Shown one piece after another: positions 2,826-60,314 of a DNA stretch of 64,000 nucleotides (within the stretch, counting starts at the first letter, position 1; every line of letters begins with the position of its first letter). The notes under the pieces were generated by a model. The model was given only the letters and a program-made list of their open reading frames with translations, was not told where the DNA came from and searched no databases. The position numbers were made by a program, and so were the translations under genes. The stretch covers positions 18,237,911-18,301,910 of the forward strand of contig OX463786.1 in assembly GCA_949825025.1 (NCBI GenBank). Reading direction: 5' to 3'. The stretch is from Siphlonurus alternatus (Eukaryota; Arthropoda; Insecta; Ephemeroptera; Siphlonuridae).

Positions 2826-3579
2826 ATATGAGACATAATTTCAGTTTAAATAGGAAAATTAGTGTTGCGCCTGCAAGAAGGTAATGTAGGCTATTTGCTT
2901 TACTTTAAAGCTAAAACAGTTGCGTGAAATACAGGGGCATAACAACAAAAATATTTTAACTTTTATTTTTAATTTACTAAAATGTAAGGTTATCATAACT
3001 TATTATATTTTTTTTAAATAAAATAAAATCAGCATGCGCTTTGTGCAATTATCACTACAATGAAATTAAATATATTTGTTACGTTTCTTTAATAAAAAAA
3101 ACAAACACCATTCTTTAGTTGATTCTGAGAATACAAGTTGCCAATATTCTCCTATCCATTTTATCCTATCAAACTTCCCATTCTAAAATATATCATTAAT
3201 ATTTAAGTAATTTTATGAGTTTTTATGCCTCGTTGCATTTTACTATAAATAACTGATGTGTTCTTTTTACCATTTAAAAAGGAGATAGGCATTACACACA
3301 TAAATAAGTAGCGCTAGTTAAATCTGCCGCTATTTTTTATACCCCACATAGATAACAAAGGATCTGATGTGGGTTAGCCATCGAGCCCCCTTATACAATG
3401 AAGGGGGGAGGGACGCCATCTGTCAGGGGGGGGGGGGAGTGCATTGTTGACATTACCGATCAGCTGTTCGTATGTGGTGTAGTACCATATTTTATAGATT
3501 ATAGCATTCTTGTACTAAAATGTGAGTTAATAATAATTTTAATTGTTTAACAAATAAAATATTTTATTTATTTATTATA

Positions 3580-29775: not shown

Positions 29776-29849
29776 ATCCAAAAGTGTGCAGTAAAAAAAT
29801 GTATTGAATATAAACAAACACTAACCACATATTTTTGTGCCCCTTGCAG

Positions 29850-30003
29850 TGTCGGTGTGAGTCGCGCACACTTCGAGAAGCAGCCCCCCAGCAACCTGCG
29901 CAAGTCCAACTTCTTCCACTTCGTGATCGCTCTATACGACCGCGCGGGACAGCCCGTCGAGATCGAGCGGACCGCCTTCATTGGCTTCGTCGAGAAGGAC
30001 CAG
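29850..30003 (+). CDS. kn: COE/EBF exon 2 (start of DNA-binding domain)
   Basis: It encodes residues 45-96. After a Ser split across the junction it reads [20 protein letters not shown], then [20 protein letters not shown] and [11 protein letters not shown]. This is the diagnostic opening of the COE DNA-binding domain and is almost invariant in animals. The acceptor is CCCCTTGCAG|T and the donor CAG|GTGAGA. A 13-bp segment, ACATCAGGGTACC, is duplicated directly just after the donor (30013-30058). The exon is much richer in GC than the flanking intron. Confidence 0.96.
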
Positions 30004-31974
30004 GTGAGATACATCAGGGTACCGTGACACCTGAACTTTCTCAGGTACATCAGGGTACCTTCATTAGTACTTTACACCAAAGTCTTCTACTCGCACAATG
30101 GTTGTGCATGGGATGATGTAGTGCCTAATTTTGCCACCAGAGCAGAGAACGTAATGGCATTGTTGGCGCTAGGCAACGGTGGTCAACTTCATAATTAACG
30201 GTCATTTTCTATAAGTTAACATGTAAATCAACAACCATGTTTTTCCTTTCACGCGACAGACATTACACAACAATACTTTGTTTACTAACAACGAGCAGAA
30301 GACTTTATGCTTTACACAAGAGAGTAATTATAAATGCGACCAATACTCTAAATCTATGCGTTCAATGCGATCTTAATGATCGATTGCTTCTGTAATATTA
30401 ATTTGTTTCTCAATAATTTATGATTTAACACATTTATTTATTTATATTATTTTGCTGTAAAAAAATTGAAAAACAAAACAATGATGCAAAATTAATTAGA
30501 AGATATTAAAATTTCTAATTTTAATAATTATTTTTTCAAAATAAAAATTTATTTTCATTTATTTATTTTTTTTATTTAGACAATTTTCTTAATTTAATAC
30601 ATTTATATTTTTAAATAAGCTAATTTTTACATGTTGTATAAAAATAATTGTATTTTGGAAAATTAAACTTTTGGTATCATAAAATATTCCCATTGTATAA
30701 CCTTTTAACAATATTTGGAAACAAAAATATTATATCTACATCACTATAAAAATGTCATGGTCATAATTATAGTCACCGGTCCCATAACTCACTATAGTCA
30801 TAACATACTTCATAATGCGGAAGATAATAATATAATTGTCGAGATTAATAAAAGCAAATTAACATCAGGTGCATTATAATAACCCTCGTCAATATATTAT
30901 AATTAAATTGAGTCTACCTGGTCCTTAATTAATATTGGCAGGTAGACCGTAATACACTTTGGCTAACATAGTGGGTGATTGTTACAAGTTTATATGATAG
31001 TACAATAATTGTATTACCGATCAAACAGAATGATCATAATCGACCTTGTACATCCGCCTGCAAAATGAAGTTGAAATAAATTTTATTCGATATATAAGAA
31101 AATCTACCATGTTAATTCCCATAAGATTTTTTATTATTTTTTTACGGAAAAATGGATTCGAGCGAATTTTTTTTAATCGGTTTTTGGTTAAAGCTTGGGT
31201 CATAGAACTTCACTATATTTTTTTCATACCACCTAACGGTGTATTTTTTCGAGATATTCGAGAGTCTTTGTCAGGTAAGGCCCCATGTTAAGCGACGCGT
31301 TCACTGTGGCTTTGGAATTTTTTTCTGACAAACCTATTTGAGATAGAATTTTTTGAATTTTGGTTTGATATGGAGGACTACTTGAACTATTTCTAGAAAA
31401 TACTAACTCAAATTTTTTTTCTAGCGCGCACTTTACTTTAAGATTCAATGCTATGACGTCATTTTTGAGAGGTTTCAAAAATTCATATAAAATCAGGAAA
31501 TTGTCGTAGAATGCTGTAATAAGGCTTGTTATTCATGAAATTCTCGTGCCTTTTGAAATGTTGACAAAAACTTGAAACTTTTTTTTTTGGTCAGTACCCC
31601 ATTCATATTATAATGTTATTATAAATTATAATACAAAATATATGCTGATGACTCATAATTATGCTTTTGCATTTTTATATACTCAAGTAGCAACACAAGA
31701 AAATATTTATAAATTTTTAGTCAAAGCTATTTTGAAAAATTAAAAATATTGAGTTATAAAAAGCTAAATTTATAACACAAATTAAATCAATATTATTACA
31801 GAAAATATTTTATATAAATTTAATTATATTGTTTATATTTCTATGGCTTAACAAATATTAAAATATATAATTATATAGAAAAATATTTACAATATATTTT
31901 TAAAGCTTCCAAACACGTTAAATTTATTAATCCTTAATAATCTAAACTCTAGAAATCCATTAAGGAGCCAATTA

Positions 31975-32924: not shown

Positions 32925-32932
32925 CTACCATG
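32925..32932 (+). repeat. Left 8-bp target-site duplication of composite element
   Basis: CTACCATG lies directly before the first CAGGGATCGG. The same 8 bp follow the last GGTCCCTG at 36418-36425. Eight base pairs is the duplication length typical of hAT transposons. Confidence 0.85.
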
Positions 32933-33166
32933 CAGGGATCGGATGCGGATGCAGATGCAAGATGCACACGGATGCGCAAAAATGAACTTGCATCCGCATC
33001 CGTGCATCCCAGATGCACGGGAAAAAATTAATGCATCCGGATGCGCATCCCAGATGCATGGAAAATAAATTTGCATCCGGATGTGCATCCCAGATGCATG
33101 AAAAATAAATTTGCATCCGGATGCGCATCTCGGATGGACGAAAAAAACGCGTGCATGCGGTCCCTG
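32933..33166 (+). mobile_element. Left hAT-like MITE copy of the composite
   Basis: Ends are CAGGGATCGGATGC and GCATGCGGTCCCTG, imperfect inverted repeats that start CAGGG as in hAT elements. The interior is made of GGATGC/GCATCC words in a tandem unit of about 40 bp (three to four copies), reminiscent of the subterminal transposase-binding repeats of hAT elements. It is about 90% or more identical by eye to the right copy. Confidence 0.8.
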
Positions 33167-36100
33167 AGTTAAAGGCCTCAAAATCCGGCTTTTTTGTTTA
33201 TGATTGAATCTTCAAAATTTCTTCATATTTGAACTCCTAGGGTCCAATTACATGGCGTCAGGTGTTTTCAGCATGATTGAGCTAAAATTAGAAGTTTTGG
33301 TTTTGTCAAGTTTTGCCGTTTTCACCGTATTGAAGTTTAAGGCCTCAAAACCCGTCTTTTTTGTTTGTGATTGAATCTTCAAAATTCCTTCATATACAAA
33401 CTCCTAGGGTCCAAATACATGACGTCGGTTGTTTTCAGCATGATCGAGCTAAAAATAGAAGTTTTGGTTCTGTCAAGTTTTGCCGTTTTCACTGTTTTGA
33501 AGTTTAAGGCCTCAAAATCCGGCATTTTTGTTTGTTATTGAATCTTCAAAATTCCTTCATATTGAAACTCCTAGGGTCCAATTACATGACGTCAGGTGTT
33601 TTCAGCATGATCGAGCTAAAATTAGAAGTTTTGGTTTTGTCAAGTTTTGCCGTTTTCACTGTTTTGAAGTTTAAGGCCTCAAAATCCGGCTTTTTTGTTT
33701 GTGATTGAATCCTCAAAATTTCTTCATATTTGAACTCCTAGGGTCCAATTACATGGCGTCAGGTGTTTTCAGCATGATCGAGCTAAAATTAGAAGTTTTA
33801 GTTTTGTCAAGTTTTGCCGTTTTCACTGTTTTGAAGTTTAAGGCCTCAAAATCCGGCTTTTTTGTTTGTGATTGAATCCTCAAAATTCCTTCATATTTGA
33901 ACTCCTAGGGTCCAATTACATGGTTTCAGGTGTTTTCAGTATGATCGAGCTAAAATTAAAAGTTTTGGTTTTGTTAAGTTTTGCCGTTTTCACTGTTTTG
34001 AAGTTTAAAGCCTCAAAATCCGGCTTTTTTGTTTGTTATTGAATCTTAAAAATTCCTTCATATTTGAACTCCTAGGGTCCAATTACATGTCGTCAGGTGT
34101 TTTGAGCATGATCGAGCTAAAATTAGAAATTTTGGTTTTGTCAAGTTTTGCCGTTTTCACTGTTTTGAAGTTTAAGGCCTCAAAACCCGTCTTTTTTGTT
34201 TGTGATTGAATCTTCAAAATTCCTTCATATTCAAACTCCTAGGGTCCAAATACATGACGTCGGTTGTTTTCAGCATGATCGAGCTAAAAATAGAAGTTTT
34301 GGTTCTGTCAAGTTTTGCCGTTTTCACTGTTTTGAAGTTTAAGGCCTCAAAATCCGGCTTTTTTGTTTGTTATTGAATCTTCAAAATTCCTTCATATTGA
34401 AACTCCTAGGGTCCAATTACATGACGTCAGGTGTTTTCAGCATGATCGAGCTAAAATTAGAAGTTTTGGTTTTGTCAAGTTTTGCCGTTTTCACTGTTTT
34501 GAAGTTTAAGGCCTCAAAATCCGGCTTTTTTGTTTGTGATTGAATCCTCAAAATTTCTTCATATTTGAACTCCTAGGGTCCAATTACATGGCGTCAGGTG
34601 TTTTCAGCATGATCGAGCTAAAATTAGAAGTTTTAGTTTTGTCAAGTTTTGCCGTTTTCACTGTTTTGAAGTTTAAGGCCTCAAAATCCGGCTTTTTTGT
34701 TTGTGATTGAATCCTCAAAATTCCTTCATATTTGAACTCCTAGGGCCCAATTACATGGTTTCAGGTGTTTTCAGTATGATCGAGCTAAAATTAAAAGTTT
34801 TGGTTTTGTTAAGTTTTGCCGTTTTCACTGTTTTGAAGTTTAAGGCCTCAAAATCCGGCTTTTTTGTTTGTTATTGAATCTTAAAAATTCCTTCATATTT
34901 GAACTCCTAGTGTCCAATTACATGTCGTCAGGTGTTTTGAGCATGATCGAGCTAAAATTAGAAATTTTGGTTTTGTCAAGTTTTGCCGTTTTCACTGTTT
35001 TGAAGTTTAAAGCCTCAAAACCCGTCTTTTTTGTTTGTGATTGAATCTTCAAAATTCCTTCATATTCAAACTCCTAGGGTCCAAATACATGACGTCGGTT
35101 GTTTTCAGCATGATCGAGCTAAAAATAGAAGTTTTGGTTCTGTCAAGTTTTGCCGTTTTCACTGTTTTGAAGTTTAAGGCCTCAAAATCCGGCTTTTTTG
35201 TTTGTTATTGAATCTTCAAAATTCCTTCATATTGAAACTCCTAGGGTCCAATTACATGACGTCAGGTGTTTTCAGCATGATCGAGCTAAAATTAGAAGTT
35301 TTGGTTTTGTCAAGTTTTGCCGTTTTCACTGTTTTGAAGTTTAAGGCCTCAAAATCCGGCTTTTTTGTTTGTGATTGAATCCTCAAAATTTCTTCATATT
35401 TGAACTCCTAGGGTCCAATTACATGGCGTCAGGTGTTTTAATCATGATTGAGCTAAAATTAGAAGTTTTGGTTTTGTCAAGTTTTGCCGTTTTTACTGTT
35501 TTGAAGTTTAAAGGCCTCAAAATCCGGCTTTTTTGTTTGTGATTGAATCTTAAAAATTCCTTCATATTTGAACTCCTAGGGTCCAATTACATGGTTTCAG
35601 GTGTTTTCAGTATGATCGAGCTAAAATTAAAAGTTTTGGTTTTGTCAAGTTTTGCCGTTTTCACTGTTTTGAAGTTTAAGGCCTCAAAATCCGGCTTTTT
35701 TGTTTGTTATTGAATCTTAAAAATTCCTTCATATTTGAACTCCTAGGGTCCAATTACATGTCGTCAGGTGTTTTGAGCATGATCGAGCTAAAATTAGAAG
35801 TTTTGGTTTTGTCAAGTTTTGCCGTTTTCACTGTTTTGAAGTTTAAGGCCTCAAAACCCGTCTTTTTTGTTTGTGATTGAATCTTCAAAATTCCTTCAAA
35901 TTCAAACTCCTAGGGTCCAATTACATGACGTCAGGTGTTTTCAGCATGATCGAGCTAAAATTAAAAGTTTTGGTTTTGCCAAATTTTGCCGTTTTCACTG
36001 TTTTGAAGTTTAAGGCCTCAAAACCCGTCTTTTTTGTTTGTGATTGAATCTTCAAAATTCCTTCAAATTCAAACTCCTAGTGTCCAATTACATCACGTCA

Positions 36101-36181
36101 GGTGTTTTCAGCATGATCGAGCTAAAATTAGAAGTTTAAGTTTTGTCAAGTTTTGCCGTTTTCACTGTTTTGAAGTTTAAG
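33167..36181 (+). repeat. 167-bp satellite array, 18 monomers, with 5-mer higher-order repeat
   Basis: Monomers start (GGCCTC or variant) at 33174, 33341, 33508, 33675, 33842, 34009, 34176, 34343, 34510, 34677, 34844, 35011, 35178, 35345, 35513, 35680, 35847 and 36014: a constant 167 bp apart, with one 1-bp insertion before 35513. Monomers with the CCCGTC variant and GACGTCGGTTG recur at 33341, 34176 and 35011, so the larger period is 835 bp, five monomers. The last two monomers are CCCGTC types outside that order. No coding potential. Confidence 0.95.
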
Positions 36182-36417
36182 CAGGGATTGGATGCGGATG
36201 CAGATGCAAGATGCTCACGGATGCGCAAAAATGGACTTGCATCCGCATCCGTGCATCCCAGATGTACGGGAAAAAAATTAATGCATCCGGATGCACATCC
36301 CAGATGCATGGAAAATAAATTTGCATCCGGATGCGCATCCCAGATGCATGAAAAATAAATTTGCATCCGGATGCGCATCCATGGATGCACGAAAAATTAA
36401 TTTGCATCCGGTCCCTG
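36182..36417 (+). mobile_element. Right hAT-like MITE copy of the composite
   Basis: Ends are CAGGGATTGGATGC and GCATCCGGTCCCTG. It has the same internal GCATCC/GGATGC repeats and orientation as the left copy, with scattered substitutions. Confidence 0.8.
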
Positions 36418-36425
36418 CTACCATG
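36418..36425 (+). repeat. Right 8-bp target-site duplication of composite element
   Basis: CTACCATG, identical to 32925-32932. From here the original intron continues for 36 bp to exon 3. Confidence 0.85.
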
Positions 36426-36461: not shown

Positions 36462-36525
36462 GAGGCGGATGGTACAAAGACCAACAACGGCATTCAGTAC
36501 AGACTTCAGCTTCTCTACGCGAATG
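36462..36525 (+). CDS. kn: COE/EBF exon 3 (DNA-binding domain)
   Basis: It encodes residues 97-117 and the first base of Gly118: EADGTKTNNGIQYRLQLLYA and then N. NNGIQYRLQLLYANG is the insect form of a conserved COE strand. The acceptor is CCATGTTTCAG|GAG and the donor AATG|GTGAGT. A transposed composite element ends only 44 bp before this exon, so the branch point and pyrimidine tract must fit in that short remnant or lie inside transposon DNA. Confidence 0.95.
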
Positions 36526-39060: not shown

Positions 39061-39153
39061 CTTAAAGTATTTATTCGTCCAAAAATGTGATAAGACAAAA
39101 GATACAGAGAGAATTATGTTATTTTGTTAATTTTCGTTGTTGGTTTGTTTCAG

Positions 39154-39209
39154 GAGTGCGACAGGAGCAAGATATTTTCGTCAGACTGATTGACTCTGTT
39201 ACCAAACAG
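39154..39209 (+). CDS. kn: COE/EBF exon 4 (DNA-binding domain)
   Basis: This 56-bp exon completes Gly118 and encodes residues 119-136: VRQEQDIFVRLIDSVTKQ. The acceptor is TTTGTTTCAG|GA and the donor CAG|GTGAGT. The frame is closed exactly with exons 3 and 5. The sequence is the conserved COE segment that precedes [16 protein letters not shown]. Confidence 0.95.
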
Positions 39210-39287
39210 GTGAGTGTATAGTACGGTATTAATATTAATATAACATGTAATCATATTAGAAGATAACTTGTATTGAAATTGAGGAGT

Positions 39288-47308: not shown

Positions 47309-47497
47309 GGCGCGATTCATGCAGCAGTTAGCCAGGTTTGTAACCACGTTTAACTTAACCACGTTTAACTTAACCACGTTTAACTTAACCACGTTTAACT
47401 TAGTGGTTTAACACGTAAAACAGGTCTATTATAGTTAAACGTGCAATGGTTAAGCTAAACATGGTTACAAACCTAACTGCTTCGTGAATTGCACCCA
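47309..47497. mobile_element. Foldback element family E with internal tandem repeat
   Basis: GGGCGCGATTCATGCAGCAG at the left and GCTTCGTGAATTGCACCC at the right. The left arm holds four 15-bp units (47341-47400), while the right arm has only one complementary GGTTAAG. Confidence 0.7.
47341..47400 (+). repeat. 15-bp tandem repeat, four units
   Basis: TAACCACGTTTAACT four times exactly, an expansion of one arm of the foldback element around it. Confidence 0.95.
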
Positions 47498-49700: not shown

Positions 49701-50219
<519 letters not shown>

Positions 50220-50288
50220 TCGATGTTGCGACAAAAAGAGTTGTGGAAATCGTAACGAGACCCCCTCTGACCCCGTCATTATAGACCG
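50220..50288 (+). CDS. kn: COE/EBF exon 6 (second half of zinc knuckle)
   Basis: It completes Ser161 and encodes residues 162-183, [20 protein letters not shown] then ID, ending with two bases of a further codon (CG, so Arg). Cys163 and Cys169 complete the zinc knuckle. The acceptor is TTGTCCACAG|T and the donor CG|GTGAGT. The next conserved segment of the family (FFLKFFLK...) was not found before the window end. Confidence 0.95.
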
Positions 50289-50639
50289 GTGAGTGTTGTG
50301 TGTACAGTTAGTGCATTAGAAAATTGTGCTTCAATTTATTGCAGTTTAAAGAGCAGTCGTCACCGTCACTACATTGGTCACACTTGATATTGGCCATTCA
50401 ACTGCAAGAAATATATGCATTGGTGTAAATTTTTTATTCACACTGTCTATACGTTTACAGATCATTTAGTGTTGTACATGGAAACTTTACATTGAAATAG
50501 AATTGTAACTGCCTTATTTGTAAATAGACGGGGATCGAACTAGAAACTGAGATAGGATGGAAATTTCAAATAGATGTGGAGGGAAAATAGAGAGATATTC
50601 GGACAACACAGTTTGGTGTCGTGAAAGACTCGTTTCTCT

Positions 50640-60258: not shown

Positions 60259-60314
60259 ATTGATTAGTCGATATTGATTAGTCGATATTGATTAGTCGAT
60301 ATTGATTAGTCGAT
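60259..60314 (+). repeat. 14-bp tandem repeat, four exact units
   Basis: ATTGATTAGTCGAT four times. Confidence 0.97.

Follow-up and report, generated by a model that had tools for sequence, protein, structure and literature searches.

Positions 32925-36425 of the window, by which we mean the whole 64,000-nucleotide stretch analyzed here, hold a block that very probably belongs to a family of composite hAT transposons (macrotransposons) in which satellite DNA was moved as cargo. The block reads, in order, CTACCATG, a MITE, 18 satellite monomers, a second MITE, and CTACCATG again (Table 1), so that two elements enclose a cargo and their outer ends delimit the inserted unit. Because 16 composites, nine of them with exact duplications, are present in the genome, the structure in the window is more than a chance arrangement. 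Macrotransposition by hAT elements is known from maize; here it appears as a natural, satellite-carrying family.

The block and its MITEs

An earlier note had described a MITE-array-MITE anatomy with an exact outer 8-bp repeat and inner flanks on the satellite 8-mer, and both observations were borne out. Only one further CTACCATG occurs on the plus strand of the window, at 31104. The two MITEs are 92.4% identical, share the same orientation, and have complete CAGGG...CCCTG ends. Internal subrepeats of ~40 bp are found in the left copy; one of these, near the 3′ end, is absent from the right copy, which therefore also lacks the T/A marker site discussed below. The array comprises 17 monomers of 167 bp and one of 168 bp, with a five-monomer (835-bp) higher-order repeat spanning monomers 2-16 and edge variants at monomers 1, 17, and 18. 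The variant AGTTAAAG is also present at composite C9:18614992.

Insertion occurred in an intron of a developmental gene, close to a coding exon, and the 44 bp of intron said to remain between the right end of the block and that exon was confirmed. The earlier note also took the splice-acceptor surroundings to have been rewritten; the tests made here gave no sign of altered splicing. The 21-aa exon product matches COE1 structures (3mln, E 1.2e-4), and other PF16422 matches lie on the same strand at ~39129-39239 (weak), 49725-49802, and 50194-50307. COE genes are known only from animals.

Table 1. Features of the composite block and of the surrounding COE/EBF gene (window positions)
Feature	Position	Strand	Remarks
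COE1_DBD (PF16422) match	29788..30006 (C9:18267698-18267916)	+	upstream of insertion
Left outer target-site duplication CTACCATG	32925..32932	.	exact match to right repeat
Left hAT-type MITE (MITE1)	32933..33166	+	234 bp; CAGGGATCGGATGC...GGTCCCTG
AGTTAAAG, variant of AGTTTAAG	33167..33174	+	opens array at inner end of left MITE
Satellite array	33167..36181	+	3015 bp; 18 monomers and final AGTTTAAG
AGTTTAAG	36174..36181	+	closes array at inner end of right MITE
Right hAT-type MITE (MITE2)	36182..36417	+	236 bp
Right outer target-site duplication CTACCATG	36418..36425	.	exact match to left repeat
Coding exon of COE/EBF gene (EADGTKTNNGIQYRLQLLYAN)	36462..36524	+	downstream of right MITE

Elements of the hAT superfamily are marked by 8-bp target-site duplications and short CAG/CTG-type terminal inverted repeats. 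The MITE family, represented by hundreds of 3′ ends across the genome, displays both features and can be classed as non-autonomous hAT: its terminal inverted repeats (CAGGGATCGGATGC at the 5′ end, GCATCCGGTCCCTG at the 3′ end) are complementary at 13 of 14 positions by direct reading, and exact 8-bp duplications flank four of seven solo MITEs (one within a TTAC repeat) and seven of ten duplex elements. Helitrons leave no target duplication and have 5′-TC/CTRR-3′ ends; a Helitron with an internal satellite is ruled out by the 8-bp duplications and the CAGGG/CCCTG ends. A profile search with PF05699 retrieved 32 matches in the genome, several with long open frames, and no autonomous partner sharing the MITE subterminal sequence was found among the six copies whose 3′ flank was read. 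One multicopy hAT family, with 99.9% identity between L075 and L076 across 893 bp, also terminates in CCCTG, but its GC-rich subterminal repeats are different. A 5S-like stretch adjoins the right MITE in L070; an Rfam scan of L070 gave no match at the gathering threshold.

A genome-wide family and its lineage

Searching the whole genome (455.7 Mb, ≤3 mismatches) for the left MITE/satellite junction gave 18 matches, compared with two for a reversed-pattern control, while the right junction gave 3 + 9 matches and its controls none. Sixteen of the 18 left-junction matches were read, and all 16 proved to be composites with a right MITE in the same orientation, ranging from 0.66 to 18.5 kb, with the interiors of several sampled at points. 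At one extreme, C3:40536602 holds only one satellite monomer; at the other, the longest composite (18.5 kb, interior sampled), whose duplication matches at seven of eight bases, would by its length correspond to ~108 monomers. A composite on C10 spans 8275321-8293845. The earlier note had proposed looking for other MITE-array-MITE blocks with duplications of their own, and 15 more composites were read in the genome. That the block moved as a unit stands, with the correction that the window copy is one member of a family and not an isolated case.

An exact outer 8-bp duplication flanks nine of the 16 composites (CTACCATG, GTTTTACC, CCCATGGG, CATTTTTG, CTTTTTGT, CATATAAT, AATATAAC, AAAAAAAT, and CAATTAAT; AAAAAAAT is of low complexity), and two more agree at seven of eight bases. 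In a control on the first 15 composites, none of 210 mismatched flank pairs was exact. This control was used instead of a flank shuffle, which reached six exact pairs in 100,000 shuffles and was set aside because shuffles retain some true pairs. The right end of the composite at C5:15932258 was predicted by a search for 3′ ends bearing the T marker described below, and its right flank, CAATTAAT, equals its left flank exactly. In five of the 16, the outer 8-mers match poorly (6, 5, 4, 3, and 2 of 8 bases); one of these is C9:18614722, to which the window copy is most closely related, and for all five the composite reading has to invoke mutation or rearrangement.

Related empty sites provide a second line of evidence. 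For three of nine composites tested (C6:21375820, C5:7746569, and C11:48024838), other copies of the invaded dispersed repeat show the site with a single 8-mer, and none of the eight empty-site copies read contains a MITE. When eight of the nine were queried together, all 40 scored matches (of 1794 candidates) belonged to L032 and L036; no empty site for the remaining six was found among them, which speaks neither for nor against these six. Together, the duplications and the empty sites uphold the original proposal that the block was mobilized whole through its outer ends.

The right MITEs carry a T near their outer 3′ end, at a site within about 20 bp of the terminus, in all 15 informative cases (14 composites and the one-ended array C6:27143484), and this T is absent from the 16 left MITEs and the 17 solo or duplex MITEs compared. 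Because the solo and duplex set consisted of top matches of a left-MITE query, T and A were also counted genome-wide: 12 exact 3′ ends have T and 474 have A. Nine of the 12 T ends are composite right ends; the other three show that T also occurs outside composites, in duplex elements L071 and L072 and in solo MITE L073. Thirteen of the 16 composites have one first-monomer variant in common. A tree of 47 MITEs, built without right ends L039-L050, is mostly unresolved; in it, the left MITE of the window groups with that of L035 (97/81), and the right one, with weaker support, groups with that of L011 (94/75). Because of this lack of resolution, the case for a single founder draws on one marker base and the common junctions, sequence features that point to a common origin of the composites. 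With 16 loci, differing outer flanks, and a common marker, the unit has moved more than once. Of the 5-bp MITE ends, the outer ones are intact in 31 of 32 cases and the inner ones in 21 of 32 (Fisher p 0.0027), a pattern in which two MITEs are becoming one element, with outer ends retained and inner ends drifting. Most likely the composite formed once and then spread, the array not having been captured for the window jump specifically.

Mechanism, founding step, and alternative readings

In the mechanism we propose, the ends of one unit would be supplied by a pair of non-autonomous hAT-type MITEs that point the same way. A hAT transposase acting in trans would make its cuts at the two outer termini, 5′ on the left MITE and 3′ on the right one, and the block with its satellite array would enter the COE intron as a whole, with duplication of the 8 bp CTACCATG. 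For the founding step, a MITE most likely inserted into a satellite array at AGTTTAAG; this MITE may then have been duplicated along with the surrounding satellite, or another MITE may have landed in the same hot spot. Array length would later have been altered between copies by unequal exchange or slippage.

A conserved satellite 23-mer has 3954 matches genome-wide at ≤1 mismatch, and the repeat is a satellite by its tandem, homogenized 167-bp unit, its 5-mer higher-order repeat, and its many arrays. The founding sequence of events suggested earlier, MITE insertion into the satellite followed by amplification, is consistent with the inner 8-mers, but the intermediate it implies was not found: in a satellite-MITE-satellite arrangement, a right-junction match would be followed, at the distance of one MITE, by a left-junction match, and at 3 mismatches no such pair exists among the matches. 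The proposed route for seeding satellite into euchromatin is real but not the sole one, as no MITE was found at the eight left and six right edges read from eight non-composite arrays.

One alternative, which we regard as unlikely, is a single non-autonomous hAT element with long direct terminal repeats, inside which a satellite monomer was captured or originated and then expanded. The composite with one monomer and the differing array lengths would suit such an element, MITEs with internal satellites have already been described, and the composite family does now behave as one element. Each end, however, is a MITE with both termini that is also found alone (seven solo copies read), the satellite also stands in arrays without MITEs (eight sampled), and both inner junctions fall on one satellite 8-mer, as expected of two insertions or a duplicated one.

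The same anatomy could also arise by recombination, if a satellite circle bearing one MITE had recombined into a lone resident MITE at each site; this would account just as well for MITEs that point the same way, for outer 8-bp repeats, and for inner junctions with satellite. What makes it very unlikely is the outer 3′ part of the right MITE, which would derive from the resident and should carry the common base A, whereas T is present in every informative right MITE of a family in which A is the rule. The empty-site copies, which have no MITE, also oppose it.

Independent assembly, with two MITEs inserting near an existing array block by block, could call on the abundance of MITEs (474 exact 3′ ends), on the attraction of insertions to AGTTTAAG, where nested foldback elements are found in two arrays, and on the tree, which does not divide the MITEs into a left and a right clade. 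Such assembly is nonetheless extremely improbable given the common inner junctions, the shared first-monomer variant, the T of the informative right MITEs, outer duplications that match in non-satellite DNA in nine of 16 cases, and empty sites without satellite. Although assemblies do fail at repeats, a mis-join at the window locus is hardly conceivable when MITE-array-MITE recurs at 16 loci with differing flanks, nine of them with exact duplications.

Known systems and significance

Macrotransposons of Ac in maize have reportedly been described by Huang and Dooner (2008) and Wang et al. (2022). Excision of a 28-kb Ac macrotransposon leaves a modified 8-bp duplication (PMC9910405), and composite insertions arise by reversed-ends Ac transposition (PMC4270019). 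As in the present family, the ends of two neighboring hAT elements move the intervening DNA; those cases are alleles obtained by genetic selection, and what they carry is genes or enhancers (PMC9910405, PMC4270019), whereas here a natural multicopy family in an animal host has complete MITEs as ends and satellite as cargo.

Mobile elements that spread satellite monomers, and in which a single monomer gives rise to a longer array, are described for bivalve Helitron/pearl elements and for miDNA4 in Xenopus (PMC5139131, PMC12628747). The former carry Cg170 or BIV160 satellites, with Cg170 copies from one master element varying in monomer number (PMC5139131), and the latter has a satellite array inside a transposon (PMC12628747). 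Each of these is one element (a Helitron or a Tc1/mariner MITE) with an internal array, in contrast to the array described here, which lies between two complete hAT MITEs whose inner ends are still recognizable. The TCAST satellite of Tribolium is similarly dispersed in introns, in some cases within transposon-like structures with short duplications, and the excerpted report includes neither a complete MITE pair as outer ends nor a related-empty-site test (PMC5844308). In Acinetobacter, the same MITE at both ends was proposed to mobilize the DNA between; that composite is a single bacterial case with other cargo (PMC3934969). In the open-access literature, we found no report of a satellite-carrying pair of hAT MITEs (titles and abstract openings) and none combining macrotransposons with satellite DNA.

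Arguments about how satellite DNA passes from its home arrays into genes usually draw on flanking DNA and sequence similarity. In the present case, a single assembly displays the vehicle with its ends, duplications, and empty sites, together with a lineage marker. hAT macrotransposition, which in maize is seen in selected events, has built a natural multicopy composite family, and kilobases of tandem repeats can travel in this way, up to the 18.5 kb of the largest composite. Tentatively, and as an idea we still consider doubtful, composite hAT units might be self-propagating satellite vectors: one founder, having caught a satellite array, would have brought arrays as long as ~18 kb into euchromatin, genes among it, and the arrays would outlast decayed or lost MITE ends as free dispersed satellite that feeds the pool. 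The one-ended array at C6:27143484 may represent the stage that follows loss of a MITE end.

The composite in the COE/EBF intron

Two hAT-type MITEs (92.4% identity), each displaying CAGGG...CCCTG termini and internal 40-bp subrepeats, enclose a satellite array of 18 monomers, each 167 bp long except for one of 168 bp, with a terminal AGTTTAAG added. A five-monomer higher-order repeat spans monomers 2–16. Re-reading of coordinates and ends confirmed the arrangement described in the earlier note, namely same-orientation, complete-ended MITEs around the array and an 8-bp repeat outside them. The 8-mers at the inner flanks, AGTTAAAG and AGTTTAAG, represent the satellite monomer's own 8-mer. The block sits inside an intron of a COE/EBF gene, with same-strand COE1_DBD (PF16422) matches to either side of it. 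The further claim that its right end rewrote the splice-acceptor surroundings is unsupported because 44 bp of intron still precede the exon. COE1_DBD matches across G000:C9:18115000-18456000, the window included, form three sets on alternating strands, and thus three COE/EBF genes appear to lie side by side within 350 kb on this contig.

Features along the window
Feature	Positions	Remark
Whole block	32925-36425	left outer 8-mer CTACCATG, MITE1, array, MITE2, right outer 8-mer CTACCATG
MITE1	32933-33166	
Satellite array	33167-36181	
MITE2	36182-36417	
Exon	36462-36524	match to COE1 structures
Perfect short tandem array	47341-47402	TAACCACGTTTAACT x4.1
Perfect short tandem array	60259-60314	ATTGATTAGTCGAT x4.0

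A composite family across the genome

The genome that contains the window spans 455.7 Mb in 102 contigs; a search of it with the left junction CCCTG/AGTTTAAGGCCTCAAAA retrieved 18 matches at ≤3 mismatches versus 2 for a reversed-pattern control. Sixteen were read (C3:28438335 and C11:69792481 were left out), and all 16 display a left MITE, then satellite, then a far-end second MITE in the same orientation. The window block is one member of a composite family, and the other MITE–array–MITE blocks envisaged in the earlier note exist: among 16 composites including the window copy, nine carry exact 8-bp duplications of their own outside the outer ends, one being the low-complexity AAAAAAAT. Two more agree at 7/8 positions and the remaining five at 6, 5, 4, 3 and 2 of 8. 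Pairing left flanks with other composites' right flanks gave 0/210 exact matches for the first 15 composites. For the 16th, starting at C5:15932258, a right-end marker search flagged C5:15921995 as the missing right end, a prediction borne out by a right flank, CAATTAAT, identical to the left.

Right junctions take two main forms, AGTTTAAG/CAGGG (3 matches) and AGTTTAACTG/CAGGG (9 matches), with controls at 0; one of the nine, C6:27143484, is an array without a left MITE and lies outside the 16. This array (L046, L052) possesses a right MITE alone, its left edge (CCCC/TTAAGGCC) entering unrelated DNA without a MITE, and is possibly a decaying composite. The smallest composite measures 661 bp and holds one monomer; the largest, on C10, measures 18,525 bp and showed nothing but satellite at three interior sampling points. 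Several others were covered at their ends only. Within a 10.3-kb C5 composite, of which ~3.9 kb of interior fell outside the reading, non-satellite DNA directly precedes the right MITE (L070 1-278, oriented). We take this stretch to resemble 5S rRNA; an Rfam search of L070 for it returned no match. Two unrelated foldback elements of ~370 and ~470 bp are nested in two composites' arrays (L010 ~2355-2726 and L011 ~3068-3536, oriented), at or beside TTAA within AGTTTAAG. Because two arrays carry unrelated elements there, this spot attracts elements.

Pre-insertion states were sought by joining flanks. The C6:21375820 composite lies in a dispersed repeat, and besides its own two flanks, 45 of 46 matches to the joined query align across the join, most running ~20–40 bp past it to where the repeat ends. 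Each of the four repeat copies read has one 8-mer, CATTTTTG or CATTTCTG, and lacks the insert. For eight more composites, the best 40 of 1794 candidates all span the C5:7746569 or C11:48024838 joins; two copies read for each display a single CTTTTTGT or CATATAAT. Since repeat copies show a single 8-mer without insert, the pre-insertion state is visible for three of nine composites tested, the other six having no match among those best 40 of 1794.

Probable founder and relatives

Near the 3′ end, right MITEs read AAAAAATCGCG and most MITEs AAAAAAACGCG, a T/A difference. T occurs in 15/15 informative right MITEs (14 composites plus the one-ended C6:27143484 array), a count leaving out the window's right MITE (site missing) and the C5:15932258 copy (found via T), and in 0/16 left MITEs and 0/17 solo or duplex MITEs. 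The right-versus-left comparison yields a Fisher value of 3.3e-9, although the copies are related and so not independent. Genome-wide, exact 3′ ends number 474 with A versus 12 with T, nine of the latter being composite right ends. Furthermore, 13/16 composites have in common a first-monomer variant, TTTATGATT, unlike the window array's consensus. These data point to descent from one founder that moved as a unit; against this, most of the MITE tree, built with most right ends left out, lacks resolution, and left and right MITEs do not separate in it.

The window composite and the C9:18614722 one, separated by 344 kb, appear to be sisters: both have AGTTAAAG and GGATGGACG on the left, their left MITEs are joined at 97/81 in the tree, and their right MITEs have four substitutions in common by eye, although not all are private (two recur in the C9:18614722 copy's left MITE, one in L048). 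The outer 8-mers of the C9:18614722 composite agree at only 4/8, which argues against a simple picture.

A second, shorter family (~600 bp in total; L012, L014-L016, L018, L021, L024-L026 and L028) comprises a MITE, a ~145-bp spacer and a MITE. Mutations mark both inner ends, which read CATTTAACA and CAAAG or variants of these. The outer flanks form 8-bp duplications of the family's own, exact in 7/10, and the whole looks like a composite already turned into a single element. Opposite-orientation MITE 3′ ends also lie ~1 kb apart at G000:C1:9530672/9531646 and C1:42068023/42069102, possible inverted pairs able to cause rearrangements.

The composite is one vehicle for the satellite, and others exist. 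A conserved 23-mer of the monomer gave 3954 genome-wide matches at ≤1 mismatch; eight non-composite arrays were chosen among 100 listed places, and no MITE match >15 bp was found at the eight left and six right edges read. Such arrays often start at one monomer phase, near CTCCTAGGG (5/8 left edges: L055, L057, L058, L060, L062), which hints at a favored point for breaks or for the opening of circles, and at a further dispersal route. The L057 and L058 arrays start with CTAGGG and end with CTCCTA.

Ends, mechanism and enzyme

Five-bp termini are intact at 31/32 outer versus 21/32 inner ends (Fisher p 0.0027), a comparison in which locating composites via the inner left junction is a bias against greater outer intactness, outer ends were also found by patterns (≤2 or 3 mismatches), and none of the 16 was discarded for a missing outer end. 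The C5:6961283 composite displays an exact duplication, AATATAAC, despite a right MITE whose inner end is wholly gone; inner ends are therefore dispensable at outer insertion or decayed afterwards.

hAT transposases pair two ends and then cut there. Where two hAT elements lie close together, the transposase may use the outer pair, and this reaction explains the measurements on these composites. In maize, where macrotransposition by hAT ends is already known, PMC9910405 describes use of the outer ends of neighboring Ac elements and how a macrotransposon of 28 kb was excised, with a modified 8-bp footprint left behind; a related reaction of reversed Ac ends yields composite insertions, according to PMC4270019. 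Satellite within transposons is likewise known from Helitrons and MITEs (PMC5139131, PMC12628747). Our search of the open-access literature found no natural multi-copy hAT composite with complete MITE ends and satellite cargo.

We infer that a hAT transposase mobilizes the composites. Long open frames are present among the genome's hAT transposase matches; the 3′ flanks of six matches revealed no autonomous partner of this MITE. The founder would have arisen when a MITE entered satellite at AGTTTAAG and was then either duplicated or joined by a second insertion, a course that the inner 8-mers fit. Another hAT family (L075, L076; PF05699, ~11 similar matches) possesses a CCCTG end and GC-rich tandem subterminal repeats, and was probably active recently, given that two of its copies are 99.9% identical over 893 bp.
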